A stretch of DNA of 57,191 nt from a virus. Shown here piece after piece: positions 1 through 53,915 of this stretch. Position 1 is the first letter of the stretch, and the number at the start of each line of letters is the position of its first letter. A program made the position numbers and the translations under genes. Where the stretch lies: positions 1 through 57,191 of IMG/VR virus record IMGVR_UViG_3300028394_000089, one strand, 5' to 3'. A model generated the notes under the pieces. That model did not search any database. It saw only the letters and a list, made by a program, of their open reading frames with translations, and was not told the origin of the DNA.

Positions 1-1
1 T

Positions 2-1419: not shown

Positions 1420-2779
1420 AAAACAAAAAATTGTTATTACTGGTGGTTTGGGTTATATTGGTACTAAATTGTGCGAAATTTATTCTGGTGAAACTCGATA
1501 TAAAAATATTATAGTAACTGATAATAAATTTGTTGCTGAAAGAGTCAAACAGTTACGTGATTGGGGGTTTGAATTTATCCAAACTAGTATTCTTAACGAA
1601 TCAGAACTCAAAAATATTTTAAGTGATGCTGATATTGTGCATCATTTAGCTGGAATTACAGATGTTGCTTATACTAAAACAGAATCTAATCCAGAAAAAG
1701 ATAAATCTATTATTGATACAGCGATTCAAGGAACATTAAATGTTATTAATTCTATTCCTGATACATGTAAATTGATATTTCCATCAACTCATGTTGTATA
1801 CGAAGGATTTAAAAATACAATGTTGGATATTAGTGAAGATATAGAGACCACAGCTGTTTTAACTTATTCTAAATGTAAAGTTCAAAACGAAAATGATATT
1901 AAAAATTCTAATAAAAGTTATGTTATTTTGAGATTAGGGTCTGTATATGGATATTGTGAATCAGACACAATGAGGATTAATATCATGCCGAATCTTTTTT
2001 CTAAAATGGCATCTCTAAATACTCCAATTAAAATGTTTTCAGGAGGTGTTCAGAAAAAAAGTCTTGTTGCCCTTACCGATGTAGCAAGATGTTTTAAATT
2101 CATGGCAGAATCTGATATTAAAAATGAAACATTTCATTTATCTAATGAGAACTCAAGCGTTAAAGAAGTCGCAGAAATTTGTAAAAAAATTAAACCAGAA
2201 ACGCGATTAATAAGTACAAATGACGAAGTTCCAAATTTGGGATATACTTTATCAAATAAAAAACTTTTATCAACTGGATTTAAATTTCTTTATAATTTAG
2301 AAGGATCTATTAAAGACATGATTAGTTTTTGGTCTAAAAAAACTATTAATACAAATTTAGAATATATTATCCGTGGAGAAAAAGAATTTATAGATGAACG
2401 TGGAAAAATTAGTAATTATGAACTTACAGAACCAATTAATCTTATAGGATATATTGAATCAAAAGCCCATACAACTCGAGCTAATCACTACCATCCGATT
2501 CAAGAACAAAAATGTTTATTAATTAAAGGCAAATATGTTAGCGTAGTTAAAGATTTATCAGTTTTAAACTCAGAGATCGAAATTCGTATTATTAATGAGG
2601 GAGATATAGCCGTAATTAAACCAAATGTAGCTCATACAATGGTATTTTTGGAAGATTCAATCTTTTTAAATTTAGTACGTGGAGAACGAGAACATGAAAA
2701 TTATGGCATAACACATACTATTCCATATATTTTAGTTGATAATGATTTAAGATTAAAATTAATTCAACAATATTCTTAA
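1409..2779 (+). CDS. NAD-dependent sugar epimerase/dehydratase fused to a cupin sugar isomerase-like domain
   Basis: Residues 1-305 are an extended short-chain dehydrogenase: GGLGYIG nucleotide-binding loop at 12-18, ST at 126-127 and the catalytic pair Tyr153/Lys157 (YxxxK). Residues from about 318 onward form a cupin resembling RmlC/WxcM-type isomerases, with DERG at 329-332 and HYH at 360-362 as likely active-site residues. The fusion suggests two steps on a nucleotide-linked keto-sugar by one polypeptide. At 456 residues it is longer than either enzyme alone. The substrate is not known; neighbours point to a branched deoxysugar. Confidence 0.8.
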   Translation: MNNKKQKIVITGGLGYIGTKLCEIYSGETRYKNIIVTDNKFVAERVKQLRDWGFEFIQTSILNESELKNILSDADIVHHLAGITDVAYTKTESNPEKDKSIIDTAIQGTLNVINSIPDTCKLIFPSTHVVYEGFKNTMLDISEDIETTAVLTYSKCKVQNENDIKNSNKSYVILRLGSVYGYCESDTMRINIMPNLFSKMASLNTPIKMFSGGVQKKSLVALTDVARCFKFMAESDIKNETFHLSNENSSVKEVAEICKKIKPETRLISTNDEVPNLGYTLSNKKLLSTGFKFLYNLEGSIKDMISFWSKKTINTNLEYIIRGEKEFIDERGKISNYELTEPINLIGYIESKAHTTRANHYHPIQEQKCLLIKGKYVSVVKDLSVLNSEIEIRIINEGDIAVIKPNVAHTMVFLEDSIFLNLVRGEREHENYGITHTIPYILVDNDLRLKLIQQYS

Positions 2780-2780
2780 T

Positions 2781-3497
2781 ATGCAAACAGTACATAATTA
2801 TCATTACGAAGATTTTTTTAATCTATTTAAACATTATATTAAAGAAGGAGATTGGTGTTTAGATATCGGGGCAAATAATGGAAATTCATGCGCTCAAATC
2901 TTAAAATTAATAGGAAATAATGGAAAATTAATATGTTTTGAACCAATTCCCGAATTTGTTCAAATATTAACTAATCGATTTAAAGATGATAAAAATATTG
3001 ATATTCATAAATACGCTTGTGACATAGAATATGCAAAAAAAGAATTTGATTATGGTATACATAATATAAATGGTAATGGAGGATTATGGAATGGCTATGA
3101 GCATGAACGTGGAAATAGGCCACCAATTCATATTGAAGTTGAATGTGTTAATACATCAGATTTTTTGCTTAAAAACTATTCTTTAGAAGATCTTAAAAAT
3201 AATTTAAAATTTATTAAAATTGATTGCGAAGGACATGATTATGCTGTAATTGAATCGCTTAAACCGTTAATAAATATTATTAAACCAATTATTTTTTGTG
3301 AATGGTGGTTTTTTGATAGCGCTATTAAACTATTTAATATTGCTGAAGAAATTAACTATTCAGCCTATAGATCTGATAACCCTAATATTTTAGCAAGTAA
3401 AGAGCATATTGGTAAAGAGTTAAATGTTAATATCTTAGGTACTGAAGCTCAATACCAACAACAGAGCCATGATTTAATATTGATTCCAAATTTATGA
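2781..3497 (+). CDS. FkbM family methyltransferase
   Basis: A 238-residue Rossmann methyltransferase. The SAM-binding motif reads DIGANNGN at residues 28-35, followed by FEP near 53-55, and the FkbM hallmark KIDCEGHD lies at 146-153. FkbM enzymes methylate hydroxyls, often on sugars. It starts 1 nt after the previous stop and overlaps the next gene by 4 nt, so it is part of the same transcript. The window holds a second FkbM-like protein (4770-5405), suggesting two methylation sites on the product. Confidence 0.85.
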   Translation: MQTVHNYHYEDFFNLFKHYIKEGDWCLDIGANNGNSCAQILKLIGNNGKLICFEPIPEFVQILTNRFKDDKNIDIHKYACDIEYAKKEFDYGIHNINGNGGLWNGYEHERGNRPPIHIEVECVNTSDFLLKNYSLEDLKNNLKFIKIDCEGHDYAVIESLKPLINIIKPIIFCEWWFFDSAIKLFNIAEEINYSAYRSDNPNILASKEHIGKELNVNILGTEAQYQQQSHDLILIPNL

Positions 3498-4765
3498 ATA
3501 TAAAACATCGAAAAACTTGTAGAATTTGTGCGAATCCTAATTTAAAAGAAATTATTGATTTAGGGTATCAAAATTTACAAGGGTCTTTTTTAAAAGAGGG
3601 TCGGGGAAGAACATCACTTCGAAAAATTCCGAATAAGATTGTAAGATGTGATGTTTCTAAAAATGAAAACGCTTGTGGTTTAGTTCAAACATTAAATACT
3701 ATCCCACCTAAAATTATGTATTCTAATTATTGGTATGAATCAAATATTAGTAAAACAATGTGTGACCATTTAAAATTAGTTGTTGATAAATCTTTAAATT
3801 TTATTCCATCTCCAAAAAGGGTTCTTGATATTGCAATGAATGATGGAACTTTACTTTTAAATTATAATGATGGTATTGAACTTTTTGGCGTAGATCCTTC
3901 AGATATTACAAAAAAAGCGAAAGAAAAACATCCGCAAATTAAAATTTACAATGATCTTTTTCCATGTCAAGAAATGCAGAAAGATAGTCTAGAAGGTACT
4001 TTTGATATTATTACATCTATTGCATGTTTTTATGATTTAGATGACCCTTTAGATTTTTGTTTAAATGTCGAAAGACTTTTGTCTCCTAAAGGCATATGGA
4101 TTTTTGAAATGGCCTATTTAATAGATATTCTTGAAAATCTTTGTTATGATACTTTTTGTAGTGAACATTTATCACATTATCACCTTGCCCCTATTGAATA
4201 TCTTTTAAATCAGGCTGGTCTTCGATTAGTATTCGCAGAAACAAATGATATTAATGGTGGTAGCCTTTGTTGTTATGCGGTTAAAAATAATAATTTTGAT
4301 TATGATAATGAAGAAAGATCTATGGCCTTAATGGAATTAAGATTTAAAGAGTTTGATATGGCGCTAGATGAAGATAAAATTTATGAAGATTTTAAAAATA
4401 GAGTGGTAGCGCAAAAATATGAATTAGTTAAATTTGTTAATGAAGAAGTGCTTAAAAAGAAAAAAACTTTACATTTATATGGAGCTTCAACTAAAGTAAA
4501 TACTTTATTAGGATACTGCTTTGGAGAAGATATTAATAAATATATTCAATATGCGGCAGAACGCAGTCCAGAAAAATATGGAGCTGAAACCTTAAGCGGT
4601 ATAAAAATTATTTCAGAAAGTGAAAGTCGAGCTATGAATCCAGATTATTATTTAGTTGGTCCTTGGCATTTTAAAAAGGAAATTTTACAAAGAGAAGTTG
4701 ATGCAGTTAATAGTGGAATTAAATTTATATTTCCATTACCGAAATTTTCAATAGAGGGGAAATAA
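3494..4765 (+). CDS. class I SAM-dependent sugar C-methyltransferase (Methyltransf_13/14 architecture)
   Basis: This 423-residue protein has the three-part layout of deoxysugar C-methyltransferases. There is an N-terminal zinc site (C9, C12, C52, C61), a Rossmann SAM domain with LDIAMNDGT at 111-119, and a C-terminal domain with YGAST near residue 330. These enzymes add a methyl to a ring carbon next to a keto group of a nucleotide-linked sugar. With the epimerase-cupin and the His-type DegT protein in the same cassette, it suggests a branched, deoxygenated sugar. The partial gene at the left edge is a relative. Confidence 0.85.
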   Translation: MNIKHRKTCRICANPNLKEIIDLGYQNLQGSFLKEGRGRTSLRKIPNKIVRCDVSKNENACGLVQTLNTIPPKIMYSNYWYESNISKTMCDHLKLVVDKSLNFIPSPKRVLDIAMNDGTLLLNYNDGIELFGVDPSDITKKAKEKHPQIKIYNDLFPCQEMQKDSLEGTFDIITSIACFYDLDDPLDFCLNVERLLSPKGIWIFEMAYLIDILENLCYDTFCSEHLSHYHLAPIEYLLNQAGLRLVFAETNDINGGSLCCYAVKNNNFDYDNEERSMALMELRFKEFDMALDEDKIYEDFKNRVVAQKYELVKFVNEEVLKKKKTLHLYGASTKVNTLLGYCFGEDINKYIQYAAERSPEKYGAETLSGIKIISESESRAMNPDYYLVGPWHFKKEILQREVDAVNSGIKFIFPLPKFSIEGK

Positions 4766-4769
4766 ATTT

Positions 4770-5405
4770 ATGGCATTATCTCAACAAGATTTATTTGTAA
4801 ATTTATTGCTTCCATCTAGAAATGGATTTTATGTAGACATTGGTGCTGGAAATGGTGAGGGGGAACCATGTGCATCTAATAATGCATGGTTAGAAGAAAT
4901 CGGCTGGACGGGCATTCTATTAGAAATCCGTGAAGATTATGTACAAGAAGCTAAAAGATTTAGACCTAAATCACAAGTTGTTCAAGCAGATGCCTTTAAG
5001 GTAGATTATAAAGAATTATTTTATAGATTGAATTGTCCAAAAGTAATTGATTATTTATCTATAGATGTAGATCCATTAGATTCAATCCAATCTCCATGTG
5101 TTGAAGTTTTATCGAAATTTCCTTTCGAAGATTTTGATTTCAAAATTTTAACGATTGAACATGATCTATATAATCCACACGGATTACAGCAAAAAAATAC
5201 TTTAAAATATTTTATGCAAAATAAACCGTATAAAATAATTGCAGAAAATGTTGGTCTATCTTTTGCTGGTAAAAAATATTTAGAAGATTGGTATATTAAT
5301 CCAATATATTACAATGATTTTCAAATTAAAGATATTGAAAACCTTTATTATAAAGAACAAAATCCAAATGACATAATTATGGATTTAGTTTTACATAAAA
5401 AATGA
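4770..5405 (+). CDS. FkbM-like methyltransferase
   Basis: A 211-residue protein with the SAM-binding motif VDIGAGNGEG at residues 22-31, ALLEIRE-like ribose-binding acidic residue shortly after, and a LSIDVDPLDS segment near 110 in the position of the FkbM KxDxEG motif. The family methylates sugars or other hydroxylated small molecules. A purine-rich AGAGGGGA about 12-18 nt upstream of the ATG is one of the few plausible ribosome binding sites in this cassette. It overlaps the next gene by 4 nt. Confidence 0.7.
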   Translation: MALSQQDLFVNLLLPSRNGFYVDIGAGNGEGEPCASNNAWLEEIGWTGILLEIREDYVQEAKRFRPKSQVVQADAFKVDYKELFYRLNCPKVIDYLSIDVDPLDSIQSPCVEVLSKFPFEDFDFKILTIEHDLYNPHGLQQKNTLKYFMQNKPYKIIAENVGLSFAGKKYLEDWYINPIYYNDFQIKDIENLYYKEQNPNDIIMDLVLHKK

Positions 5406-6376
5406 ATATAGCATATATTGATATGAATTTCGATGATACCATCGAAGATTATCATTATTCACCCAAAAGATATGGTGGTGGTAGAATTATTGCCTCAGCT
5501 TTATTATATAAACTAGATACATTTGATATTTATTCTAATTCTGAATCTTTTGTAAATATAGAAAAATCAAAACAAAACCAATGTTTTTCACTTGATAATG
5601 CGGCTAGACAAAAAATTAAAAATGGTGATAATATTAAAAAATATATACCGAATTATGATAAATATGATATATTTCTGCACCATTTTTCAAATGTTTTTTT
5701 AAATTTAGAAGGATGCAGAAGTCAAAAACAAGCCGTATGGTCAGTTGGTTGGAGAGAACAAATTAATCCAAATAATAAAAATATATTACTTTTTGATCAT
5801 ATAGGTCAAGAGCCTCAAATGGTTGGAAATCATAAAATTTTTAAAATTGTTATTGGTCCAAAATTTGAACAGTTTAAAAAGTATGATAAAGAAGATATAA
5901 TTTTTCAATGCTCCAGACACTTCCCCCTATATCAATCAATTGCCGTCGCCCAACTTGCTTTAAAATATAATATTAAAACTTATTTTGCTGGACCAATTGA
6001 AAACGGATATCCATTAATTGATTTTATAGATAATAAAAATACTTTTTATTTAGGGGTAATAGATTCAGAAACAAAACAGGATTTCTATAAAAGAGCTAAA
6101 TTAAATACTCAATTTCAAAATTATCCTATTTCAGCTACACTGGCTGGAAAAGAGGCTGCTAGTTATGGATGTGGAATATTAGCTTGTCCAGTGGGAGGGT
6201 GGAATCTTTTTATTAAAGAGGGGCTTAATGGATTCTTCATTAATAATGAAATAGATTTTATAAATGCTTGGGAAAAGAGGGGTGAACTTAAACAACAAAA
6301 TTGTTATAATTTGGGGTTACCTCATTCTGAGGAGAATATGATTAATTCTGTATTAAATGCTTTAAAAGCTATATGA
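5402..6376 (+). CDS. glycosyltransferase, GT-B fold-like
   Basis: A 324-residue protein whose C-terminal half reads like a GT4 donor-binding domain: a SATLAGKEAASYGCGILACP segment followed by GGWNLFIKEGLNGFF, where such enzymes have the E-x7-E region and a glycine-rich turn. The N-terminal half contains YSPKRYGGGRI, typical of the acceptor-domain glycine loop. Its start overlaps the previous stop (ATGA) and its stop overlaps the next start. The sugar it transfers cannot be told. Confidence 0.65.
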   Translation: MNIAYIDMNFDDTIEDYHYSPKRYGGGRIIASALLYKLDTFDIYSNSESFVNIEKSKQNQCFSLDNAARQKIKNGDNIKKYIPNYDKYDIFLHHFSNVFLNLEGCRSQKQAVWSVGWREQINPNNKNILLFDHIGQEPQMVGNHKIFKIVIGPKFEQFKKYDKEDIIFQCSRHFPLYQSIAVAQLALKYNIKTYFAGPIENGYPLIDFIDNKNTFYLGVIDSETKQDFYKRAKLNTQFQNYPISATLAGKEAASYGCGILACPVGGWNLFIKEGLNGFFINNEIDFINAWEKRGELKQQNCYNLGLPHSEENMINSVLNALKAI

Positions 6377-7200
6377 GTAAAGATCTAGATTTATGCGTAT
6401 TTATTAGCTCTAAAGATAGGCATGGCCGTACAAAAGATTATAAAATTACAATAACAAGTTTTTTAAAACAAGCTGGTGATAGTTTTAATAATAAATATGT
6501 TAATATTAAAGTTTTTGATGGCGACGAAAAAAATGCTTTAAATATAGAATCTTTTTTTAAAAATCTTAATTTTAAAATAAATATTATTAAAGATGAAATA
6601 GGTATTTTAAATTCTGATCGTTACGACAATAGACAAAAATTTATTAGCGGAATAACAGCAGATATATCTAATTTTTTTTTAAAGTATCAAAATGATTTAT
6701 CTAAATATGTATTTATTTTAGAAGATGATTCCCCAATTATTCTAAAAAAATATAATTTTCAATATTACGAAAATAAAAGTAAAACATTACTACAGAGCGA
6801 CGAAGATATAGAAGCAATTCATTTTTTAAGATTAAGTTGTAATGAAATTCCATGTTCACCACTTGAATGGTTTATTTATCATAAGATTGAAAATCTTAAA
6901 AATGAAGAAATTATAACTGAATATTGGTATAACTTTCAGCCTAGAATTTGTAGAACAGATACGCTAATAAATGTATGTTTACTAATAAATCAAAATTGGA
7001 ATTTTTATAAAAATTTACATACAGAAGACGCTTTTGATAAAGCCTATAAACAATATAATAAAAATATTAGATATTACGCATTTTCTCCGTATAATGCATA
7101 CTCTATCCATCTCGGATTAGATAATAATTTACATAAATTAGTTATAGAATCTGAGCCAGAAATTAATTCTAAATATAAAAGTTTAAATGAAAAAAATTAA
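6373..7200 (+). CDS. glycosyltransferase-like protein, GT-A type
   Basis: A 275-residue protein starting with a beta strand and SSKDRHGRTKDY, and carrying FILEDDSPI near residue 115. EDD in that context is the usual metal-binding acidic motif of GT-A glycosyltransferases. No long family motif beyond this is recognised. It overlaps genes on both sides (4 nt upstream, 14 nt downstream) and so is co-translated with the glycan cassette. Function is inferred from fold hints and from the neighbours. Confidence 0.5.
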   Translation: MSKDLDLCVFISSKDRHGRTKDYKITITSFLKQAGDSFNNKYVNIKVFDGDEKNALNIESFFKNLNFKINIIKDEIGILNSDRYDNRQKFISGITADISNFFLKYQNDLSKYVFILEDDSPIILKKYNFQYYENKSKTLLQSDEDIEAIHFLRLSCNEIPCSPLEWFIYHKIENLKNEEIITEYWYNFQPRICRTDTLINVCLLINQNWNFYKNLHTEDAFDKAYKQYNKNIRYYAFSPYNAYSIHLGLDNNLHKLVIESEPEINSKYKSLNEKN

Positions 7201-8209
7201 AATTTTAGGAGATCCAACTAATAAAAAATTTCAAAGCAGCGACATCATTATTTCAAATATCAATAATGCTGCTGAAAAACTCGGGATATTTTCAGAAGAT
7301 GGATATAAAATTGTTTATGATTGTATTGGTAATACCCATGGGCATAATCCACATGCAATGATTATAGTATATGAATTAATTTTCCCCCATTTTATTTTTA
7401 AAAATGTTAGCCCACTGCCTATACTTGGAGTTTCTAGAGATAATTTAAATTTTATACTTGAATCTGGATATCCATCACATTTATGTGATTATGTTAATTT
7501 GGGTGTTGATTCTAAAATATGGCCCTTTAAAGAAAAAAAGAAACAGGATAAATTTACCTTACTAGGTATTGGGGAGTCAAATTCCAGAGGTGGCTTAGAA
7601 TTTATTGTACAAAATTTTTGCGAAGAATTTCGTAATAGTAATTTTATTAAATTATATTTAAGAGATAGAACGGCTAGTGACAAATTTAAATCATGGGTAC
7701 ATGAAAAGTCTATAGAATATAATGTTGAAATAATTCATGATGATAGACACTTAGAAAATTTTAATGAAGAACGTGAAGTTTATTACAAAGCAGATGCGGC
7801 AATATGTTTAAATAAAACAAGTACATGGAATTTACGAACTATAGAATGCATGAGTACTGGCACTCCACTTATAGTTATTCCATATGCTGGCCCAAGAGAT
7901 TATACTATAAATAATTTTTCCGCATTACATGTTGATTTTGATTTATCTCCGTTTACAGAGAATGATATTATTCATGCCGAGTCAATAGGTCTTAGAAATC
8001 ATTTATTCCACCCGTCTATTCATCCCAAAATACCATACTGGACAATTCCTAAAAATCATAGTATAAAATTAAAGATGAGGGAAATAGTAGAGAATGAAAG
8101 TTTAAGATATTTTATAAGTAATTATGGATCGATTACCGCTCAAAAATTTACTTGGGAAAAATGTGCTATAAATATTTACCATACTATTAATTCGATCTTT
8201 AATAATTAA
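7187..8209 (+). CDS. glycosyltransferase, GT-B (group 1) type
   Basis: A 340-residue protein. A segment near residues 205-230 (RTIECMSTGTPLIVIPYAGP) matches the GT4 signature where a conserved Glu is followed by a small-residue turn and a hydrophobic strand. A KFTLLGIGES strand near 125 would start the C-terminal Rossmann domain. Likely transfers a sugar to a growing glycan on the cytoplasmic side. The stop is followed 1 nt later by the next gene's ATG. Confidence 0.7.
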   Translation: MKKIKILGDPTNKKFQSSDIIISNINNAAEKLGIFSEDGYKIVYDCIGNTHGHNPHAMIIVYELIFPHFIFKNVSPLPILGVSRDNLNFILESGYPSHLCDYVNLGVDSKIWPFKEKKKQDKFTLLGIGESNSRGGLEFIVQNFCEEFRNSNFIKLYLRDRTASDKFKSWVHEKSIEYNVEIIHDDRHLENFNEEREVYYKADAAICLNKTSTWNLRTIECMSTGTPLIVIPYAGPRDYTINNFSALHVDFDLSPFTENDIIHAESIGLRNHLFHPSIHPKIPYWTIPKNHSIKLKMREIVENESLRYFISNYGSITAQKFTWEKCAINIYHTINSIFNN

Positions 8210-8210
8210 T

Positions 8211-9239
8211 ATGATTCATTTGTACGAAGATGATCCAAGATTTTTATCTGATCCAACATTTATAGATAATCACGGATCATTTTCTGTAATTAATTATGGT
8301 TTAAATAATGCTTTAAAAAAATTAAATTTATATTCAGATATTGATCAAGCTGAATATATAGGATTTGCTACCAGTTTAAATTTAAATAATTATATTAATG
8401 GTAAGAAATGTTTCTATATAACAGTTTGGGAAACAATAAATAAATTAACTAATTATCATTTAGAAATTGCTAGGGGAAATAAAATTCTATTTGGAATGAG
8501 TGACCAAGTAAGTAATTTATATAGAAAAGAAGGTATCAAATGTGAGACCCTTCATTGTGGGTGTGATACGGATTTTTGGAAACAAACCCTTCCTAAAAAT
8601 AAAAAATTTACATTTGTTCATATTAATAGTAGTAATGTTAGATCTGGGTTAGATTTAACACTTCAAGCTTTTCATATGGCCTTTCAAAATAATCCAGATG
8701 TTCAATTAATAGTCAAAGATACGAATACAAATATTGATATTTTATCTTCGAGAATCAATGAAATGAAATCCGCTGGTACTAATATCAAATATATAACTAA
8801 AAGATCTACTAAAAATGAAATTCGTGATTTATATTCGAATTCACATGTCGGATTGAATTTACTAAGGATGACGTCATGGGGATTTCCATTGCATGAGATG
8901 TCTGCATGTAACTGCTTATGCTTTACTGGTGATATAGAGCCGACTAACGTCTTAATAAATAAAAATTATGGAGTTCTTTTAAAACCCAAATCAGAAGTGA
9001 ACATATCAGAAAAATTAAATGAATTGGTTAATCACTGGGGTTTATTAAACTGTTATGGTGGATTTCCATATTCAGAAGAACCTAGATTTTATGATTTTAA
9101 TGTAGAAGAATATTCTACAAAATTAAAGGAAATATACGATGATTGGAGTTTTTATGGAAAAATAGATACAAGAACACCTATAATAGATAATTGGAAATGG
9201 GAATATTCTGCAAAGAATCTAATCAAAATGTTATATTAA
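8211..9239 (+). CDS. glycosyltransferase, GT-B (group 1) type
   Basis: A 342-residue protein with typical group 1 features. There is an FHCGCD-like turn near 118 (LHCGCDTDFW), a KFTFVHINSSNVRSGLDLTLQAF stretch that begins the donor domain, and HEMSACNCLCFTGD near 230 in the place of the EAMACGxP motif. It lies 1 nt after the previous gene and 1 nt before the next. It is the fourth glycosyltransferase in a row, so the operon could assemble a short oligosaccharide. Confidence 0.75.
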   Translation: MIHLYEDDPRFLSDPTFIDNHGSFSVINYGLNNALKKLNLYSDIDQAEYIGFATSLNLNNYINGKKCFYITVWETINKLTNYHLEIARGNKILFGMSDQVSNLYRKEGIKCETLHCGCDTDFWKQTLPKNKKFTFVHINSSNVRSGLDLTLQAFHMAFQNNPDVQLIVKDTNTNIDILSSRINEMKSAGTNIKYITKRSTKNEIRDLYSNSHVGLNLLRMTSWGFPLHEMSACNCLCFTGDIEPTNVLINKNYGVLLKPKSEVNISEKLNELVNHWGLLNCYGGFPYSEEPRFYDFNVEEYSTKLKEIYDDWSFYGKIDTRTPIIDNWKWEYSAKNLIKMLY

Positions 9240-9240
9240 T

Positions 9241-10407
9241 ATGAAATGGCCATTAAATAAAAATAATTTTACTATTTTAGACAGATTAAAAATTTGTAGT
9301 TTTATACTTAATTTTAAAAATAGATGGACACAAGATATACAAGTAAAAAAATTTGAAAAGAAAATGGCTGACTATGTTGGCTGTAAATATTCAGTATTTG
9401 CAGGCAATGGCTCATTAGCTAATAATTTATTAGCGCAATATATTAAGCATAAAGTTCCCAATAAAAAAATTGTTGTATTTCCATCGATAACATGGCAAAC
9501 GTCTTGCTCTCCATGGATTAAAGCTGGTTTTGAACCACATTTTATTGATATTTCTTTAGAAGATTTTTCTATAGATAGGACAAAACTTCTTGAATATGTA
9601 AAAAAGAATAAAAATAAAATTGCTTGTATTTTTCCAACTTCATTAATTGGTTTTACTCCTAATTTTGATTTTTATAAAAACTTAGAAAAAACATACAATG
9701 TTAAAATCATGTTTGATAATTGTGAGAATACTTTAAGTTTTTATGGAGATAAAAATATTTCTTCATTTTTTACCTCTTCAACTTCTACATATTTTGGACA
9801 TCAGATTCAATCTATAGAAGGTGGATTTATTTTTACAAATTCAGAGGATGAATATAAATATTTTTTGATAAACAGAAACCATGGAATGGTAAGAAGTTTA
9901 ACTTCTTATGGTTTTGATACAAAAGAAATAGATAATCCAAAAGTAGATAATTTATTTGATTTTTATTCTTTAGGAGATAATTATCGCGGTAGCGATTTAA
10001 ATGCTTTTATTGGGCAGCTTGATTTTAATCGTATAAATTTATATACGGATTCCAGAAAAAAATTATACTCTTTATTTAAAGAAAACTTAGATAATAATAA
10101 ATATTATTTACCATCTGATCGAAACAAGTGTTCTGATGTTCCATTTTGTATTCCTATTATTATTAAAAATAAAAATAAAACAAGATTTCAAACGGCTTTA
10201 AATATTTGTAAAAAATTAGGAATTGAATATCGACCCATTGTATCTGGATTTTTAGGGTATCAAAACTGTTATAAGGATTATTTTAAATCGGATAAAGATT
10301 ACCCCGACTCAGTTTATTTACACAATTATGGATTTTATATTGGTTTATATCATGGTATAAAAGAAAAAGACTTATTAAACTTAACAAGTTTTTTAAATGA
10401 AATTTAA
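9241..10407 (+). CDS. DegT/DnrJ/EryC1/StrS-fold PLP enzyme with His in place of Lys (3-dehydratase-like)
   Basis: A 388-residue member of the sugar aminotransferase fold: GNGSLAN at residues 55-61, FPTSLIG near 131, FDNCENTLS at 158-166 and the IEGG turn at 192-195. Five residues before that turn, where aminotransferases keep the Schiff-base lysine, the sequence has His187 (FGHQIQ). In known relatives (ColD of colitose synthesis and RfbH/E1 dehydratases) His at this position converts the enzyme from an aminotransferase to a 3-dehydratase that removes the C3 hydroxyl. Dehydratase activity is therefore inferred. It overlaps the next gene by 11 nt. Confidence 0.8.
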   Translation: MKWPLNKNNFTILDRLKICSFILNFKNRWTQDIQVKKFEKKMADYVGCKYSVFAGNGSLANNLLAQYIKHKVPNKKIVVFPSITWQTSCSPWIKAGFEPHFIDISLEDFSIDRTKLLEYVKKNKNKIACIFPTSLIGFTPNFDFYKNLEKTYNVKIMFDNCENTLSFYGDKNISSFFTSSTSTYFGHQIQSIEGGFIFTNSEDEYKYFLINRNHGMVRSLTSYGFDTKEIDNPKVDNLFDFYSLGDNYRGSDLNAFIGQLDFNRINLYTDSRKKLYSLFKENLDNNKYYLPSDRNKCSDVPFCIPIIIKNKNKTRFQTALNICKKLGIEYRPIVSGFLGYQNCYKDYFKSDKDYPDSVYLHNYGFYIGLYHGIKEKDLLNLTSFLNEI

Positions 10408-10810
10408 AAATATCTTTGGAAAAGATGTTAACAAAAATATTAATAAATATTTAGTTAAATGGAATGAACCATGTAGAAGTAAAGTACAGTTTAATATTAA
10501 AAAGTTCTTTGAAACTTACTGGAAAACACATATTGTTGTAGAGGAGTTTCCTGTTTTTGGAAGTAGGATGAAATGTGATTTAATAAATTTTACAAAAAAA
10601 ATTGCAGTAGAAACACATGGCCTTCAACATGATAAATTTGTGAAACACTTCCATCGTACACGAACTGGTTTTAAAAAAAGCGTTAAAAGAGATTTACAAA
10701 AATATACTTGGCTAGAAATGAATGGTTTTCAAATTATTGAAATTTTTGAAAATGAAACAAGTCTTTTAGACTCTGATTGGATAAAAGAAAAATTTGATAT
10801 AGAAATTTAA
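10397..10810 (+). CDS. small PD-(D/E)XK-type nuclease candidate (Vsr/DUF559-like)
   Basis: A 137-residue basic protein with the layout of very-short-patch-repair-like nucleases: Asp61 (KCDL), then a strand ending in VETHGLQHD with Glu72, His74, Gln77 and His78, and a C-terminal YTWLEMNGFQIIEI strand. These fit the catalytic D...ExK/H...H pattern of that superfamily. It is the last gene of the glycan operon by overlap (11 nt) but functionally fits DNA processing. It could be a homing-type or repair nuclease. Family assignment is by motif only. Confidence 0.55.
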   Translation: MKFKNIFGKDVNKNINKYLVKWNEPCRSKVQFNIKKFFETYWKTHIVVEEFPVFGSRMKCDLINFTKKIAVETHGLQHDKFVKHFHRTRTGFKKSVKRDLQKYTWLEMNGFQIIEIFENETSLLDSDWIKEKFDIEI

Positions 10811-10811
10811 C

Positions 10812-10839
10812 TTGAATCTCAAACAAACTTGAGTATAAT
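10812..10839 (+). promoter_or_regulatory. sigma70-like promoter before dNMP kinase gene
   Basis: TTGAAT (10812-10817), 16-nt spacer, TATAAT (10834-10839). Only 6 nt separate the -10 box from the ATG at 10846, so transcription should begin at or next to the start codon. It starts the replication operon. Confidence 0.75.
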
Positions 10840-10845
10840 GAATAG

Positions 10846-11445
10846 ATGGATCCATTATACATTGGAATTTCTGGGGTTTCTAGGTCTGGAAAAGATAGTC
10901 TAGCAAGCGAAATAGAAAAAATTCTTAGAACTTATATCCGAAGTGCTTTTATTTATAAAAGTTCATTAGCCCATCCGCTTAAGGAAGATTGCGCAGCTTT
11001 TATTAAGAACTATTTAAACTTAAACGTTTTTACAGATAAAACCGAAGAGAAGTCTATTTTTCGTGAATTTCTTGTTTGGTACGGTAAAGTCAAAAGACAA
11101 CAAAGCGAAGGCAAGCACTGGACAAACCTTTTAGATCAGCGCGTTGAAAATTTTCAACCAGATATTTGTATTGTTCCAGACGTTCGTTATCAACAATATC
11201 GGGAAGATGAGGTTAGTTGGCTTAAATCAAAAAATAGAAATGTTCTTATTCACTTGCAAAGAATTGCAATTAATGGTGAAATAGTTCAACCCGCAAATAT
11301 GGACGAATCAATTAACGACTCTATTCTTCAAGATATGGCAGACTATAAAATTGTATGGCCGACGTTCGTTGAAGAGGGTAAAGATGAGTCCATGAGAGAA
11401 ATTGCTATCAAAGCATTCAATACAGTTATTAAGGAAAAAATTTAA
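10846..11445 (+). CDS. deoxynucleoside monophosphate kinase-like P-loop protein
   Basis: A 199-residue protein with a Walker A loop GVSRSGKDS at residues 10-18, characteristic of phage dNMP kinases, which phosphorylate deoxynucleoside monophosphates for DNA synthesis. A D at the end of a VPDVRY strand near residue 108 fits the family. It is the first gene behind a promoter whose -10 box ends 6 nt before the ATG, implying a leaderless message. It is followed 2 nt later by the helicase gene, as expected for a replication operon. Confidence 0.7.
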   Translation: MDPLYIGISGVSRSGKDSLASEIEKILRTYIRSAFIYKSSLAHPLKEDCAAFIKNYLNLNVFTDKTEEKSIFREFLVWYGKVKRQQSEGKHWTNLLDQRVENFQPDICIVPDVRYQQYREDEVSWLKSKNRNVLIHLQRIAINGEIVQPANMDESINDSILQDMADYKIVWPTFVEEGKDESMREIAIKAFNTVIKEKI

Positions 11446-22495: not shown

Positions 22496-22792
22496 ATGAT
22501 AGTAACATGGACGGTAAAAGGCTCGGATTGGCAACAATCCATTAAAGCAAATATTAACTCAAATCCAGGGGAAATCGCCACACAATGTGTGGAAAAATTA
22601 ATAAACACTCTTAAAGAGGAAGGAGATGAAGCTAGTTTTGGAGCAATACTCGGTATTAGCCATTCACAAATGAAAAGTGATGAAGAGCATTATTTTATGT
22701 ACGCCCCTTTAGTACTTGCTAACGCTGGCTTTTATGAAGATGCGGATGCTTTAGAAAAAGCCATAGATTTAGACTCTAGTCTCAAAGAATGA
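22496..22792 (+). CDS. hypothetical protein
   Basis: A 98-residue protein of unknown function: a short beta start (MIVTWTVKG) followed by helices and an acidic tail. It is the first gene behind its own promoter (22461-22488) and overlaps the metallopeptidase-VWA gene by 4 nt, so it may belong to the same module as that protein and the AAA+ ATPase. No motif is recognised. Confidence 0.65.
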   Translation: MIVTWTVKGSDWQQSIKANINSNPGEIATQCVEKLINTLKEEGDEASFGAILGISHSQMKSDEEHYFMYAPLVLANAGFYEDADALEKAIDLDSSLKE

Positions 22793-24024
22793 AAGAATCC
22801 TTAACCTATGATGAGTATAGAGAGATTATGGAGTCTCTTATAGAACATCATGGGATATTTTACCAATTCTGGAGGATCTGTAAACCAGTATTCTCTAATG
22901 AAGTACCGACTGCTTGTGTTGGATTTGATAAAGACGCAAATTGTATTGAATTTTTAATTAATAAAAAATTCTGGAATAAGCAATCAGAACACAATAAAAA
23001 ATTTGTAATTGCCCATGAGTGTATACATGTTATCCATTCACACGGAAAACGTGCTGGTAAAAAAATGTCGCCAGCGGCTAACCAAGCAATGGACATTGTA
23101 GTTAACGAATCACTTGTTAAATACTTTGGATTTGATCGCAAACAATTCGACCCAAAAAATCAATACTATTGGCTAAACACAAGTTTTGATAAAGAGGATA
23201 ATGTATTGCCTTGGAATAATTTTGAATATTACTATAACCTTTTGCTTAAAGATAGTACAAAAATAAAAAATAAACAATTAGTCAGTGATCATGGCGGCCT
23301 TGGAGATATTCCAGAAGAGAGCGCTCAAGAAATTATTAATCAATTAAGTGAAGAAGAAACTGAAACACTTAAAAATATAACAGAAGATGCTGAAAAAAAT
23401 AGCCGTAAAAATGAAAAACAAATCGGAAATACCAAGGGTGGGTTGATTCAAAAATTAAATAATAAAGCGGTTCCTGTAAAAAAGAAATGGGAAACAATTA
23501 TTAAACGTTTTGAAAAGAAAATGACAAAAGATGAATCTCTTGAAAATCATTGGATAATGAAAGACAGGCGCCTTTTTAATTTAAATTTTGATATATTTTT
23601 ACCTTCTGATATCGAACAAACGGTAAGAAAAACTGAAGCCAATAAAATTGCAACTTGGTTTTTTATGGATACTAGTGGATCTTGCTGGGGTCTAGCTCCA
23701 AGATTTTTCCGCGCGGCTAAAAGTTTAAATCCAGATAAATTTGACGTACAATTTTTTGCATTTGATACTGATGTTTATAAAGTTGATTTAAAAAAGAATA
23801 AACTAGCTGGCGGCGGCGGAACCAGCTTTAGATGTGTTACGGATTACGTCTATAAAAAACATGCACAAAACCCTTATGTTTGGGTAATCACTGACGGATG
23901 GGGCAATGGGGCTAGCATCCCAGAAGAGCAACGCAAAAAATGGAATTGGTTTTTAACAAGCGATGGAACTACTGCTTATATACCTAATGGTTGTAAAATT
24001 CATTCTTTAAAAGATTTTGAGTAG
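22789..24024 (+). CDS. DUF2201-like metallopeptidase-fold and VWA domain protein
   Basis: A 411-residue two-domain protein. The N-terminal domain has HECIH at 76-80 (HExxH zinc motif), a conserved N107-E108 region and helical surroundings. The C-terminal VWA-like domain has a MIDAS motif DTSGS at 294-298, GGGGTSF near 341 and ITDGWG near 365. Such proteins work with MoxR-type AAA+ ATPases, one of which follows 31 nt downstream. The pair probably remodels or activates a protein target, as chaperone-like systems do; the target is unknown. Confidence 0.8.
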   Translation: MKESLTYDEYREIMESLIEHHGIFYQFWRICKPVFSNEVPTACVGFDKDANCIEFLINKKFWNKQSEHNKKFVIAHECIHVIHSHGKRAGKKMSPAANQAMDIVVNESLVKYFGFDRKQFDPKNQYYWLNTSFDKEDNVLPWNNFEYYYNLLLKDSTKIKNKQLVSDHGGLGDIPEESAQEIINQLSEEETETLKNITEDAEKNSRKNEKQIGNTKGGLIQKLNNKAVPVKKKWETIIKRFEKKMTKDESLENHWIMKDRRLFNLNFDIFLPSDIEQTVRKTEANKIATWFFMDTSGSCWGLAPRFFRAAKSLNPDKFDVQFFAFDTDVYKVDLKKNKLAGGGGTSFRCVTDYVYKKHAQNPYVWVITDGWGNGASIPEEQRKKWNWFLTSDGTTAYIPNGCKIHSLKDFE

Positions 24025-37172: not shown

Positions 37173-38025
37173 TTTTTTAGAAATTTTAAATTTTTTATTT
37201 AATTATGAAATATACTCATCTTTCGCCTGTGTTTTGAGAATTATTTCAACGGGTTATTTATTATTTTGTTTATTTTGGATTAGAAAAGACGCTTGGAATT
37301 TTTCGTCTCCAAACGGACCATTCGGAAATAATGACTATAAAAATTTTGCTAAGCAATTTAATTTCCAATTATCATTATTTAGTATTTTTAATGATAGATT
37401 TCCTGCTCAAAAATTTATTTTTATAAGTTTTTATATTTCTGGACTCTTTTCTTTAATTGGATTTTTTACAAATATATCTCTGTTTGTATTTTTAATAATG
37501 TTAATGTCAATACAAAATAGAATTTTACCTATTATTTATAGTGCGGCAGATAGTATTTCAAGAATATTAATCATATGTTTAGCTATAACTGACTGTGGAT
37601 CACAATATTCGCTTGATAATATATTAGGATTATCTTCTAATCAAAATATCATTAATGGAACTGGGATTAGGGTTTTACAAATTAGTATTTGTATGATTTA
37701 TTTTTGGTCTTCTGTTTATAAATTAAGAGATACTTACTGGTTAGATGGTGAAACTATTAAAAATGCTATTGCTACACCGATTTGGGGTACGAGATGGTGT
37801 TTAAAATTTTGGCAGAAAAATATTGTTTCTAAATCTATAACATGGTCTGTATTGATATTTGAATATTTTGCCCCAGCCCTATTCTTCATTAAAGAAACTA
37901 GAAATTTTGCTATTATATATGCAATATTGATGCATGTTTGTATTACAATATTTATGAGAATTGGATATTTTGGTCCTATAATGATAATATCTGTATTAAG
38001 TTTTTGTAACGATTTTTTTAAATGA
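37165..38025 (+). CDS. HTTM-domain membrane protein (vitamin K-dependent carboxylase-like)
   Basis: A 286-residue polytopic membrane protein with about 6-7 hydrophobic helices. The HTTM-type signature is GIRVLQISICMIYFWSSVYKLRD followed by YWLDGE, where a conserved Lys in that helix and a W-x-G turn follow. HTTM proteins are related to gamma-glutamyl carboxylase, but bacterial members have unknown chemistry. Genes on both sides overlap (8 nt and 4 nt) and encode a small anchored partner and an SDR protein. Unusual in a phage. Confidence 0.65.
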   Translation: MISFLEILNFLFNYEIYSSFACVLRIISTGYLLFCLFWIRKDAWNFSSPNGPFGNNDYKNFAKQFNFQLSLFSIFNDRFPAQKFIFISFYISGLFSLIGFFTNISLFVFLIMLMSIQNRILPIIYSAADSISRILIICLAITDCGSQYSLDNILGLSSNQNIINGTGIRVLQISICMIYFWSSVYKLRDTYWLDGETIKNAIATPIWGTRWCLKFWQKNIVSKSITWSVLIFEYFAPALFFIKETRNFAIIYAILMHVCITIFMRIGYFGPIMIISVLSFCNDFFK

Positions 38026-38603
38026 AAATATTAATATTAGGTGGAACATTATTCGTCGGAAAACATTTTGCCAAAGTTCTTAAAGATAAAGGCTATGATA
38101 TTACTTTAGCTAATCGGGGCATTTCTGGAGAAGTCAATATCAAAATAGACAGGAATAACATTGATACATGCAAAAATTTAAATAACAATTATTACGATAT
38201 TATAATAGATTTTTCATGCTATAATTTGGAGCAATTAATTAATACTCTTAATTATGTAAAATTTGATAAATATATATTTATATCGACTAGTGGTGTAGAT
38301 TTCCTACCCTTTCATAATGTCGCGCCAGAACATTACGAAATGGCTATGTATATTTTTAATAAAAAGAAATGTGAAGATTATATAGTAAAAAATATTTCTA
38401 ATCATACAATAATTCGCCCATGTTATATTGTTGGTGAAGGGGACTATACAAATCGTTTTTATAAAAATGGAAATAAGTATTATTGGAATGATGGAAAAGA
38501 ATTAACTTTTTATATTGAAGTAGGTAAGTTTAGTAGTATAATTTTTAATAGTTTTAAAAATAAAGGAGCTAATATTATTAGTCCCTGTAAAGAATTGAAT
38601 TAA
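38022..38603 (+). CDS. short NAD(P)-binding epimerase-like protein
   Basis: A 193-residue atypical SDR. The nucleotide-binding loop is GGTLFVGKHFA at residues 7-17 and a FISTSG strand near 88 corresponds to the catalytic Ser region. RPCYIVGEGDYTNRF near 128 is typical of the CSP41/isoflavone-reductase-like class. The Tyr-x3-Lys pair appears absent or shifted, and the protein is shorter than the usual 280-330 residues, so it may be a binding rather than catalytic protein. It overlaps the HTTM gene by 4 nt. Confidence 0.6.
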   Translation: MKILILGGTLFVGKHFAKVLKDKGYDITLANRGISGEVNIKIDRNNIDTCKNLNNNYYDIIIDFSCYNLEQLINTLNYVKFDKYIFISTSGVDFLPFHNVAPEHYEMAMYIFNKKKCEDYIVKNISNHTIIRPCYIVGEGDYTNRFYKNGNKYYWNDGKELTFYIEVGKFSSIIFNSFKNKGANIISPCKELN

Positions 38604-38608
38604 AAAAT

Positions 38609-39199
38609 ATGAAACGTAAAGATTGTATTGGTAAAACATTTAATCATTTAACTATTTTAGAAGTGCTTCCGAATGATAAAGTAAAATGTCAATGTACTTG
38701 TGGTACATTAAAATTATTTAATTGGCGAGATATTCGTAGGGGGAGAACCAAAGGTTGTGGTTGTCGCCGCAATACACCAGAATTAAGAGCCTTAGCAAAG
38801 GAAAGGGCAATAGATCTTCAAAAGAAGGGTATATTAAAACGTGGTTATGTTGGAAAAGATGCCAAATGTCCATTTAAATATATTTTACGTACGTTAAATA
38901 AGCCAAATAGAAAACCATGTAATTTAAAAATAGAGCATTTAAAAAAAATTTGGGAAGAAAGCGGTGGAGTTTGTTCATATACAAAAATTAAATTAATTTT
39001 ACCAATTGGATCTGCAAATCCGAATCCCGCAATTTCATATAAAATGGCATCGATAGACAGGATTGATTCTTCAAAAGGGTATGAGCTTGGAAATATTCAA
39101 TACGTTAGTCGTAATATAAATTATGCGAAAGGAATCCTTACTCATCAACAGATGTTAGATTTTATGAATCTTATTAAAGAAGTGGACGTGAGGGGCTAA
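38609..39199 (+). CDS. HNH endonuclease (homing-type)
   Basis: A 196-residue HNH nuclease. The N-terminal DNA-binding part has CQCTCG and KGCGC cysteines around a RRGRTKG turn. The HNH part has GGVCSYT and ASIDRIDSSKGYELGNIQYV ending NYAKG, the usual His/Asp-Asn layout of phage homing nucleases. It is encoded on the strand opposite the tmRNA, and its last 17 nt overlap the tmRNA 3' exon. It may be the mobility enzyme for the group I intron there, but that is inference from position. Confidence 0.8.
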   Translation: MKRKDCIGKTFNHLTILEVLPNDKVKCQCTCGTLKLFNWRDIRRGRTKGCGCRRNTPELRALAKERAIDLQKKGILKRGYVGKDAKCPFKYILRTLNKPNRKPCNLKIEHLKKIWEESGGVCSYTKIKLILPIGSANPNPAISYKMASIDRIDSSKGYELGNIQYVSRNINYAKGILTHQQMLDFMNLIKEVDVRG

Positions 39200-39893
39200 T
39201 TTAAAAACTAATTTCTTAGTATATTCATTAAAGAATATTTAAATTGTGGACTATATCTTCATCTGATTAGTTATATCAGAGCTGGACGCTAATCTGGTTA
39301 TTAAGAGGGCTTTACCTCTCCAGTAGTCTCTGAACCTTCTAAAAATGTATTTTTAGCTTGGCTGCTGATTGGCATATCATATTTTATGATTTAGCTTTCC
39401 AGCAATTCATCCAGTTTTAATCGAAGCATCACTGCTAAGTCAACCCATTGAGTTGAACCCCTGTCCATTTAATTTATATTAAAAGGTCTACATGTTTTAG
39501 TTTCTTTAGCATTTTAGCCACCATACGGTAACTTGGACTTTTAGGCTGCTTGGCGACACTAACCTTAGTTTTAAGTCTGCCTATAGATTATTATCGCAAA
39601 TCTACATACGGAGGATTTTTTTTGTTACATTGATATAGTCCACAATTCAATAACCTCTGCTATCAATTAACCCTTAGAGGATCTAGGTTAAAGGATCTTA
39701 GGCTGCTAAGAGGTACTCTTCTTCAACTTCCCCGAGGAACTCGGAGGCATTGTTGAAGATATATTCTGCTTCAGCCAAGATTGCATCAGTATTATCTTCT
39801 GCGTTTGGTTTTTAATCGATTTTTTACGAGGCCATCGATTAACCTCGACATGCGCTTTTAATTTCAACTAAATGTCGAAACCAGTACACGCCC
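39183..39893 (-). ncRNA. ssrA: transfer-messenger RNA (tmRNA) gene interrupted by a group I intron
   Basis: tmRNA rescues stalled ribosomes and tags the nascent peptide. The 5' end has GGGCGTG (39893-39887) followed by TACTGGTTTCGAC, the tmRNA 5' signature. Pseudoknot 1 is CGAGG/CCTCG with AATCGAT repeats. Resume codon GCA is at 39802-39800, nucleotide 92 (90 in E. coli). The tag ORF is 34 residues, AEDN...EYLLAA, ending TAA at 39700-39698. A 3' stretch GGACAGGGGTTCAACT is the start of the T-arm. Exon 1 is 39893-39451; a 255-nt intron (39450-39196) sits in the T-loop; exon 2 is 39195-39183 and supplies CCCCT and CACGTCC, closing T and acceptor stems. Spliced length is 456 nt plus added CCA; CCA is not encoded. 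No SmpB gene is seen in this window. Confidence 0.9.
39196..39450 (-). other. group I intron in the tmRNA T-loop
   Basis: 255-nt self-splicing-type intron. P1 pairs exon TTCAACT with the guide GGGTTGA just inside the intron, leaving a U-G wobble at the 5' splice site. Conserved core strands are AATTGCTGG (P), CCAATCAGCAGCC (Q), GTTCAGAGACTA (R) and GAAGATATAGTCC (S). A P9-type hairpin ATATTC/GAATAT follows, and the intron ends with G (39196). No ORF fits inside it. The order P-Q-R-S is unambiguous; subclass IA is suggested. Confidence 0.88.
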
Positions 39894-39914: not shown

Positions 39915-39943
39915 ATGATAAGCTTTATTACACTGTTTGTCAA
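39915..39943 (-). promoter_or_regulatory. tmRNA promoter
   Basis: Minus strand TTGACA (39943-39938), 17-nt spacer, TATCAT (39920-39915), 22 nt before the mature 5' end. The spacer also contains GTGTAAT (39933-39927), the candidate late motif. Confidence 0.7.
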
Positions 39944-48101: not shown

Positions 48102-48323
48102 ATGAAAAAACAAAATAATCATAAATTTAATCAGGCCATATTATGGCTATTAACAATTCCAACCGAAGAATTATCAGACTCAATGGTTTTAGCGCACAAA
48201 AGGATGCAGGAAGAAGACCAAAATGAAATTTGGTTGGTTGATTATTTTGAAAACAATCTAAAAGAAGAAATCGAAGAATTTATTGAGTGGAACGATACTT
48301 TTCTACAAACCAAAGCTGTATGA
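48102..48323 (+). CDS. hypothetical small protein
   Basis: A 73-residue acidic helical protein, starting directly after the MazG stop and overlapping the GMP reductase/IMPDH-like gene by 4 nt (ATGA). No motif is recognised. The context suggests nucleotide metabolism. Confidence 0.5.
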   Translation: MKKQNNHKFNQAILWLLTIPTEELSDSMVLAHKRMQEEDQNEIWLVDYFENNLKEEIEEFIEWNDTFLQTKAV

Positions 48324-49315
48324 CTATATTGAAATCCAGTTCAATTTATTATGATGATGTAAATTTGATTGCGCAACCAACAGATATTTCGTCACGATCC
48401 GAAATTCCAGAGGAAAAATGGCGCATTATGGTAAGCCCAATGCAGTCAATCGTTGGCCCGATCTTTGCAAAAAAAGCTCTTGAACTCGGACTATCTGTTT
48501 GCTTACATCGTTTTAATTCAACTATACAGGACAGATTAAAATTAATTAATGACGTATTTATGAACATGACCGATCCAAATACTCAAATTAAAAGAGTTTG
48601 GGTTTCCGTAGGATTAAAAGATTTAGAAAATATAGAAGCTATTATACATCAAGGAGTAGAGAATATTATTATTGATGTAGCTAATGGGTATATGTCAGAC
48701 GTAATTGAATTTGCGTCACAGATCTTTCATAAATCTGAAAAACAGATTAAAAAAATAATGCTTGGGAATATTCATAGCGATACCATTCTTACGGATTATC
48801 AGAATCTTTCTATTTATTTAGGAATACCAATTTATTTTAGGTGTGGTATTGCGAGTGGGAGCGTTTGTAATACCAGCGTAATGACTGGATACAATCGCGG
48901 CCAAATTACCGAAATTAATGAATGTGCCACTTGGGTTGACTCTACTAATAGTAATTTACTTTTAGTGGCTGATGGCGGAATTGCTAATCCAGGGTGTGCA
49001 GTAAAGGCTTTTGGTGCTGGTGCTGAATATATAATTATGGGCGGTTATTTTGCACACGCTAAAGAATCGCAGCACGTTATTGATGAGATTTATAAGTTTT
49101 GGGGTGGAGCTTCAGAACTTCAACAAATCATGTCTAAAGGGGCTGCTGAACGTCATAGCGAAGGCAGGGAACAAGATATCAATAAAGACGATCTTTTAAG
49201 CCTAAATAAACTAGTTTCTGATTTATGGGGCGGTATTAGTAGCGGTGTAAGCTACAGTGGATATAAAACTCTCACAAAATTTATTGGAAATGCCGTGTTT
49301 GAAATCAAAGAATAA
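48320..49315 (+). CDS. GMP reductase/IMP dehydrogenase-like TIM-barrel enzyme
   Basis: A 331-residue enzyme. The catalytic loop is GIASGSVCNTSVMTGYNRGQ with Cys in the place of the active-site Cys of IMPDH and GMP reductase, and MGGYFAHAKES near 233 matches the family's phosphate loop. The C-terminal segment MSKGAAERHSEG corresponds to the MSxxxA.....GxxEY region. A CBS domain is absent, which points to GMP reductase-like proteins. It would interconvert IMP and GMP in the phage-infected cell. ATG 48320 (ATGA overlap) is preferred to GTG 48287. Confidence 0.75.
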   Translation: MTILKSSSIYYDDVNLIAQPTDISSRSEIPEEKWRIMVSPMQSIVGPIFAKKALELGLSVCLHRFNSTIQDRLKLINDVFMNMTDPNTQIKRVWVSVGLKDLENIEAIIHQGVENIIIDVANGYMSDVIEFASQIFHKSEKQIKKIMLGNIHSDTILTDYQNLSIYLGIPIYFRCGIASGSVCNTSVMTGYNRGQITEINECATWVDSTNSNLLLVADGGIANPGCAVKAFGAGAEYIIMGGYFAHAKESQHVIDEIYKFWGGASELQQIMSKGAAERHSEGREQDINKDDLLSLNKLVSDLWGGISSGVSYSGYKTLTKFIGNAVFEIKE

Positions 49316-52867: not shown

Positions 52868-53286
52868 AAGAAGAAATACCAGAAAGTTTTTGGGAAGCAC
52901 TTGTCGAAGTTAAAGACAAAGATATTAATGAATTAAAAACCCTTTTAAAGGTCATGGATCAAGCCAAACACGCCGCCTTGCAGCGCGAAAGTTTTGCCGT
53001 GGAAGGGCGTGATAAAGCGAGAGAACTTTTTCAAACCGCGATGGAGCTTGCCAAAAAATATAAAGACGAGCGCGATGAATGTCAAGTTGAGCAGGGTCGT
53101 GCTTTAAAAGCGTGGACTGAAGCGGTATCCGAACGCACCGCTGCACTGTTAGAGCGCGACGAATACAAAATCGGACATGATCGTTACGAAAAATTGCGCC
53201 GATTAAATTTGCAACAAATTAAAGAGTTGTATTTAAGAAATTTGCGAACTGGAGAGCATTTTGATACGCTTGTCGATAAGTTATGA
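52864..53286 (+). CDS. hypothetical coiled-coil protein
   Basis: A 140-residue protein from ATG 52864 (MKEEIPESFWEALVE); an in-frame start at 52846 is inside the previous gene. Almost all of it is predicted helix with Glu, Lys, Arg and Ala heptads. Codons are GC-richer than the surrounding genes, as in 50610-50990, which it resembles. Unknown function; ATGA overlaps at both ends. Confidence 0.5.
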   Translation: MKEEIPESFWEALVEVKDKDINELKTLLKVMDQAKHAALQRESFAVEGRDKARELFQTAMELAKKYKDERDECQVEQGRALKAWTEAVSERTAALLERDEYKIGHDRYEKLRRLNLQQIKELYLRNLRTGEHFDTLVDKL

Positions 53287-53915
53287 AAAAACAAAAAGAA
53301 ATATGGGTAGATTCTTATTATTTTCCAGAAACATATGAAGTGTCTAACTATGGAGAGGTTAGGAATAAACATTCTAAAATAAATAAAAAGCTTCAAGGGC
53401 ATTTTTCTAGAAAAGGTGGTAGTTGTAAATACTGGTTTGTAGGTTTATATAGAGCTAAAGACAAGGCGGTACAACGAATTGGAGTTCATAGATTGGTATA
53501 CTTATCATTTTCCCCCAAAACTCTTTTAAGTAAATGTATTCATCACATTAACCATATTTCAACAGATAATCGTCTTTGTAATTTATCAGCAGTTGATAGA
53601 AATTCTCATAGCTCAAAGCATATGAAATTAAATGTCAAAAAAAATAATTGGCCTTTATCAAAATATTTAGTAAAAAAAGGCGATAATGGAAAAAAGTGCC
53701 CATCTTATGAATTTGACTTGATTGCCATTGACTCTAGTAATATTATCAAACATGTCATTTCTGGAGTAAATGATTTGATTTCGCGTGGATTTTCTAGAGG
53801 AGCCTATAGAGTCGCAAATAATTATCAAAAAACACATCGCGGTTTAATTTTTAAAAAAGCGTATTCAGGACATTCTTATAAAGTCGGAGATATTTACGAA
53901 AAAAAAACGAAATAA
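53283..53915 (+). CDS. NUMOD4/HNH homing endonuclease
   Basis: A 210-residue protein. The N-terminal NUMOD4 motif is KEIWVDSYYFPETYEVSNYG followed by EVRNKHSK, and the HNH core is IHHINHISTDNRLCNLSAVDR near 93-113. Such free-standing nucleases cleave relatives lacking the gene and so spread between phage genomes. AT-rich codons contrast with the preceding coiled-coil gene, consistent with insertion. It overlaps 52864-53286 by 4 nt. Confidence 0.88.
   Translation: MKKQKEIWVDSYYFPETYEVSNYGEVRNKHSKINKKLQGHFSRKGGSCKYWFVGLYRAKDKAVQRIGVHRLVYLSFSPKTLLSKCIHHINHISTDNRLCNLSAVDRNSHSSKHMKLNVKKNNWPLSKYLVKKGDNGKKCPSYEFDLIAIDSSNIIKHVISGVNDLISRGFSRGAYRVANNYQKTHRGLIFKKAYSGHSYKVGDIYEKKTK

Follow-up and report, generated by a model that had tools for sequence, protein, structure and literature searches.

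The viral DNA analysed here, a 57-kb fragment (57,191 nucleotides, the window in what follows), carries phage replication genes and 14 tRNA genes. On its minus strand lies a tmRNA gene that is interrupted in the T-loop by a group I intron, and an endonuclease gene converges on it from the plus strand. The features of the locus, with their positions in the window, are as follows:

38022..38603, plus strand: NAD-epimerase-like gene, which serves as the "empty site" marker
38609..39199, plus strand: free-standing HNH/endonuclease VII-type gene with PHROG matches, convergent with the tmRNA
39183..39195, minus strand: tmRNA 3′ exon, CCCCT-CACGTCC-A, 13 nt (T stem, acceptor, discriminator), with the CCA not encoded
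39196..39450, minus strand: group I intron without an ORF, 255 nt, at T-loop position 8
39451..39893, minus strand: tmRNA 5′ exon, 443 nt, placed by an 84-bit RF00023 match and by boundaries from intron-free relatives
39698..39802, minus strand: tag frame, with GCA resume codon (39802), 34 amino acids (AEDNTDAILAEAEYIFNNASEFLGEVEEEYLLAA) and stop TAA
39898..39907, minus strand: boxA-like leader TTCTTTGAAA, between the promoter and the tmRNA 5′ end, directly before the gene
39915..39943, minus strand: sigma-70-like promoter TTGACA-N17-TATCAT (11/12), opposing the direction of the neighbouring genes

The Rfam tmRNA model (RF00023) matches 39885-39449(-) with 84 bits (cut-off 47, E 3.7e-31), and the Intron_gpI model (RF00028) matches 39460-39226(-) with 81.5 bits (cut-off 50, E 3.3e-19). 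The original prediction had placed a minus-strand phage tmRNA at 39893-39183, its T-loop broken by a 255-nt group I intron, and had proposed a search with these two covariance models as the check; both score far over their cut-offs. The phage tmRNA, the intron, the coordinates and the splice sites of that prediction all stand; its statement on the rarity of bacterial cases needs correcting, and its idea of splicing-coupled rescue found no support, as discussed below. It did not mention the conserved long tag, the tmRNA's own promoter and boxA-like leader, or the adjoining HNH gene. The 5′ exon holds the acceptor 5′ strand, the D arm, the pseudoknots, the tag frame and the 5′ half of the T arm, ending at T-loop nucleotide 7. 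ARAGORN detected neither the window tmRNA gene nor its form spliced in silico.

When 39450-39196 is removed, the T arm closes as AGGGG-TTCAACT-CCCCT, and the 13-nt 3′ exon completes both the T stem (AGGGG/CCCCT) and the acceptor (GGGCGTG/CACGTCC), as had been proposed; the acceptor keeps the G3.U70 pair and is of the alanine type. The rejoined sequence is read without a break in an intron-free relative (L036, AGGGGTTCAACTCCCCTCA), which supports the splice boundaries independently. Two further intron-free relatives (L064/L065) read AGGAGTTCAACTCTCCTCACGTCCACCA and share the window's acceptor stem, and the window 3′ exon is identical to the one that follows the intron in the second intron-bearing contig (L066). 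Neither intron-bearing copy has lost the G3.U70 pair, the acceptor or the T stem. Over the family (33 members with canonical arms) the acceptor and T-stem pairs covary, with acceptors GGGGGTG/CACCTCC, GGGGGCG/CGCCTCC, GGGGATG/CATCTCC and GGGCGTG/CACGTCC and T stems AGGGG/CCCCT, AGGAG/CTCCT and AGAGG/CCTCT. The intron-bearing phage tmRNA is real, and chance is excluded as its source.

The intron comprises P1 with a U.G pair, the P3-P8 core, P7.1/P7.2 and a terminal G (ending ...AAATTAG). Exon UCAACU pairs with intron GGUUGA in P1, giving the U.G at the 5′ splice site that the original prediction had read there. Insertion is after T-loop nucleotide 7, which is internucleotide position 8 by the numbering of PMC11915505. 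The 3′ hairpin of the intron is ACTAA-GAAA-TTAGT in the window and GCTGA-GAAA-TCAGC in the other intron-bearing contig (G003), amounting to two compensatory changes. The intron very likely splices itself out. No conserved riboswitch or extra domain was seen in its 255 nt. In looking for a bacterial source of the same intron, 43 matches to the splice-site/P1 signature were obtained from 84,980 species genomes, all of them chance matches with no group I core. Among 395 Bacteroidia genomes one group I intron in a tmRNA was found, at T-loop position 3 (L195, G022).

The promoter ends 22 bases from the tmRNA start. The whole window contains 6 promoter-like sites scoring at least 11/12, 2 of them on the minus strand, and TTGACA likewise precedes the tmRNA in L027, L032, L033 and L042. 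The motif TCTTT[GA]A occurs at similar spacing in 69 of 79 related tmRNAs, and we infer that the leader TTCTTTGAAA is a boxA, as in rRNA and tRNA leaders.

The tag ends in LLAA before its TAA, a hydrophobic Ala-Ala end. Related phage tmRNAs were first found in IMG/VR with a pattern from the first pseudoknot, and a search with the tag alignment then gave 89 viral contigs with a long-tag tmRNA, 80 of which were kept. The family covers loci L072-L151 and L023-L052. Tags in this family are mostly 32-35 amino acids long, and 45 in two members. The same search found no long-tag tmRNA in the cellular genomes of 84,980 species, an absence that is not absolute given the short patterns, and the tmRNA exon had no match in INPHARED. 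Across the 19-codon tag core of 53 unique sequences pS is 0.586 and pN 0.108. Of 1378 pairwise comparisons, which are not independent of one another, 1372 have pS above pN, and the effect is large. The other reading frames of the region give no such contrast, which argues that the tag is translated and selected as protein. By this measure of substitution, the tag is under strong protein-level purifying selection. The window and 12 related contigs, fragments among them, yielded no SmpB gene, and the SmpB used is therefore presumed to be the host's.

Several long-tag tmRNAs (L074, L077, L101, L105, L107, L109 and L148) have a T loop without TTCRANY (e.g. GGACTCGGCTATCGTAGGCCGACACC) while the stem and acceptor are kept. 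A scan of 20 loci with tmRNAs lacking a canonical T arm found no intron in them; their T loops are degenerate. Truncated phage tmRNAs with a 5′ half only and no 3′ half occur in L026 (about 945-1160), L043 and L053, where the tag ends AEPSFALAA and is followed by a hairpin and T-run.

The HNH gene beside the tmRNA matches four endonuclease families in PHROG (including phrog_3322 at 2e-14, phrog_374 at 2.7e-12 and phrog_1035, endonuclease VII, at 8e-10). Its protein has no Pfam match above cut-off and no PDB sequence match, and its AlphaFold model is poor (mean pLDDT 45). The ORF crosses the 3′ exon (13 nt) and ends within the final bases of the intron; the same is seen in L066, in another frame. 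An orthologue with 84% amino acid identity is present in G003, where it also adjoins the tmRNA 3′ exon. A close homologue is thus found in 1 of 18 related contigs and is absent at this similarity from the other 17, all of them intron-free, so that the HNH gene accompanies the intron in 2/2 intron-bearing contigs. The only further full-length homologues are in L135 and L140 (52-56%), right behind intron-free long-tag tmRNAs, so the enzyme can persist there without the intron. Counting the three in IMG/VR and the one in the window, all four full-length members found lie beside a long-tag tmRNA. In the intron-free L064/L065 the epimerase orthologue directly abuts the tmRNA, whereas the HNH gene separates the two in the window; a query search returned no relatives of the window epimerase. 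Other endonuclease genes are found directly after or near intron-free tmRNAs, of the GIY-YIG type in L125 and another of HNH type in L047. Endonuclease genes seem to use the 3′ flank of the tmRNA as a landing site.

Among all family members found, the intron occurs only in the window and in G003 (L033/L066, a 166.5-kb contig). The intron is 94% identical in the two contigs, the HNH gene 83-84% and the tmRNA 5′ exon 76%, with other shared genes at about 65-72%. The exon tree separates the window and G003 into different groups (support 100/100), and a single clade was rejected (AU test). As the two exons do not group together and the intron is so much more alike than the exon and neighbouring genes, the intron must have moved laterally. 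The exons are mosaic: their ends are alike among the window and G001-G004 and the middle, with its helices, differs. Some of the contrast between exon and intron may therefore stem from exchange of the tmRNA middle. Even with this mosaicism, the similarity of the intron greatly exceeds that of the surrounding genes. With exon mosaicism as a caveat, these identities indicate that intron and endonuclease are younger than the genomes carrying them.

As regards the host, both the HNH gene and the intron core are similar to their counterparts in crAss-like and Flavobacterium phages, at most a hint of a host among the Bacteroidota. Positions 1-11000 of the window hold sugar-nucleotide, methyltransferase and glycosyltransferase genes, with a GC content of about 27% compared with about 33% elsewhere. 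The window also contains a NUMOD4-HNH gene (53283-53915), a second HNH gene (phrog_1314, 22789-24024) and an IMP-dehydrogenase-like gene (48287-49315).

An ORF-less intron thus adjoins a free-standing endonuclease gene, and intron-free relatives are without the pair. The best explanation, and one we consider likely, is that the phage tmRNA works and carries a mobile group I intron, with the adjacent HNH enzyme as that intron's partner in collaborative homing. The tmRNA would be transcribed from its own minus-strand promoter, and the ORF-less intron would excise itself, joining T-loop nucleotide 7 to the T stem and leaving a 456-nt body to which CCA would be added afterwards. Together with host SmpB, the spliced tmRNA would be charged with alanine and, during infection, would put its 34-amino-acid tag ending in LLAA on stalled proteins. 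The intron would be a passenger. The HNH enzyme would act on co-infecting relatives whose tmRNA gene has no intron, cutting that gene at the T-arm site or close to it, repair would copy intron and endonuclease into the cut relative, and the intron would shield the donor's own site from the enzyme. Collaborative homing of the two elements is likely on the gene arrangement described, with the adjoining endonuclease gene probably helping the intron to spread. The series of tmRNA alone, tmRNA with HNH, and tmRNA with HNH and intron is the expected product of such homing.

Three other accounts need to be weighed. An unlikely one, though the strongest of them, is that the HNH gene is unrelated to the intron, being one of the many free-standing endonuclease genes near tRNA and tmRNA genes; the intron itself would either be mobile or have come by descent and been passed between phages through general recombination. 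The unrelated endonuclease genes beside intron-free family tmRNAs (GIY-YIG in L125, HNH in L047) fit this account, as do the same HNH gene without an intron in L135 and L140 and the mosaic exons. However, the HNH gene is present in both intron-bearing contigs, no full-length member of its family was found away from a tmRNA (4/4), and the gene interlocks physically with the intron end and the 3′ exon of 13 nt, all of which favour a partnership of the two.

The intron could also be a regulatory switch whose splicing ties the supply of tmRNA to the state of the infected cell. Maturation of the tmRNA needs splicing, so the splicing rate would set the dose, and the original prediction had likewise suggested that the intron couples ribosome rescue to splicing. 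We found nothing in favour of such a coupling, and this account seems improbable: about 90 related phage tmRNAs have the same kind of tag and no intron, no riboswitch or extra domain was seen, and mobility accounts for the presence of the intron. Recent lateral movement, an adjoining endonuclease gene and empty sites in relatives are instead the pattern of a mobile passenger. Hardest of all to credit is a decayed gene, in which splicing has been lost and the tmRNA is unused. ARAGORN does reject even the spliced form, and the middle helices diverge, yet the tag frame is intact and selected across the family, the acceptor, T stem and G3.U70 pair are preserved in both intron-bearing copies, and the changes in the intron 3′ hairpin are compensatory. 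Collaborative homing remains our preferred explanation. A broader proposal is more tentative, and we put it forward as somewhat doubtful: that these genes form a phage-only tmRNA lineage, whose exceptionally long, protein-conserved tag has a role beyond marking proteins for degradation, and whose gene serves as a homing target. An HNH enzyme dedicated to tmRNA would then work together with a T-loop group I intron, in what would be the first collaborative-homing pair in a tmRNA.

These findings extend T-loop tmRNA introns from bacteria to phages, and a phage copy offers a donor route for such introns into bacterial tmRNAs. The natural series from tmRNA to tmRNA with HNH to tmRNA with HNH and intron can be used for studying how mobile introns form. 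Intron forms escape surveys of phage tmRNAs based on ARAGORN, and the existence of a large family of phage tmRNAs with a selected long tag makes the purpose of phage trans-translation testable.

A second phage case is probable, unrelated to the first, in the 735-kb phage LR756501, where a divergent, unannotated tmRNA with a T-arm group I intron appears to lie at L006:2596-3210. The intron match (96.1 bits) follows a weak tmRNA match of 21.1 bits, which is below cut-off (E 2e-5). By eye, we see a boxA-like leader, an acceptor GGGCTCG/CGGGTCC whose third pair is G.U, a candidate tag frame of 27 amino acids (AEDMMSIPTSLTGKVATESFVEDLVLA), and CAGGG...CCCTG flanking the intron. A nuclease gene lies downstream (3303-4076), and SmpB is encoded elsewhere in that genome.

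The original prediction had spoken of T-loop introns in a few bacterial tmRNAs, a number that proves far too low: the main text of PMC11915505 gives 883 unique group I introns in bacterial tmRNA genes, at T-loop subsites 2, 3, 7 and 8. According to the same text, site 7 is the main one and spans 21 phyla, position 8 is rarer and reported only from Saprospiraceae, the mean length is 293 bp, and 36 of the 883 contain an intronic homing endonuclease gene, those tested being LAGLIDADG. Judged by that description, the window intron shares with them the T-loop group I type, the U.G 5′ splice site, the terminal G, the lack of an ORF and a length near the mean, but it is in a phage, at position 8, and has an HNH-type endonuclease gene outside the intron. 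The Bacteroidia intron in L195 is of the same type with P7.1/P7.2 and has a similar core, but it is inserted at position 3 of a cellular, short-tag tmRNA, with no close identity outside the core.

Phage tmRNAs as such are known, with 79 unique ones in PMC11915505, whose main text is silent on an intron form among them, and with tmRNAs in 402 of 18,146 genomes (PMC9004378) and in huge phages, where they were called by ARAGORN (PMC7162821). The window gene resembles these in its tag frame and in belonging to a large tRNA-rich phage; it differs in the intron and in a conserved tag of 32-45 amino acids in its family, compared with a commonest length of 10. The closest parallel for the homing arrangement is cyanophage S-PM2, in which F-CphI, an enzyme with an endonuclease VII motif, cuts intron-free psbA and the intron blocks self-cleavage (PMC6083498; PMC3984707). 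As there, an ORF-less phage group I intron lies beside a free-standing endonuclease VII-type gene, and intron-free relatives have neither intron nor endonuclease. In the window the interrupted gene is a tmRNA and not a protein gene.
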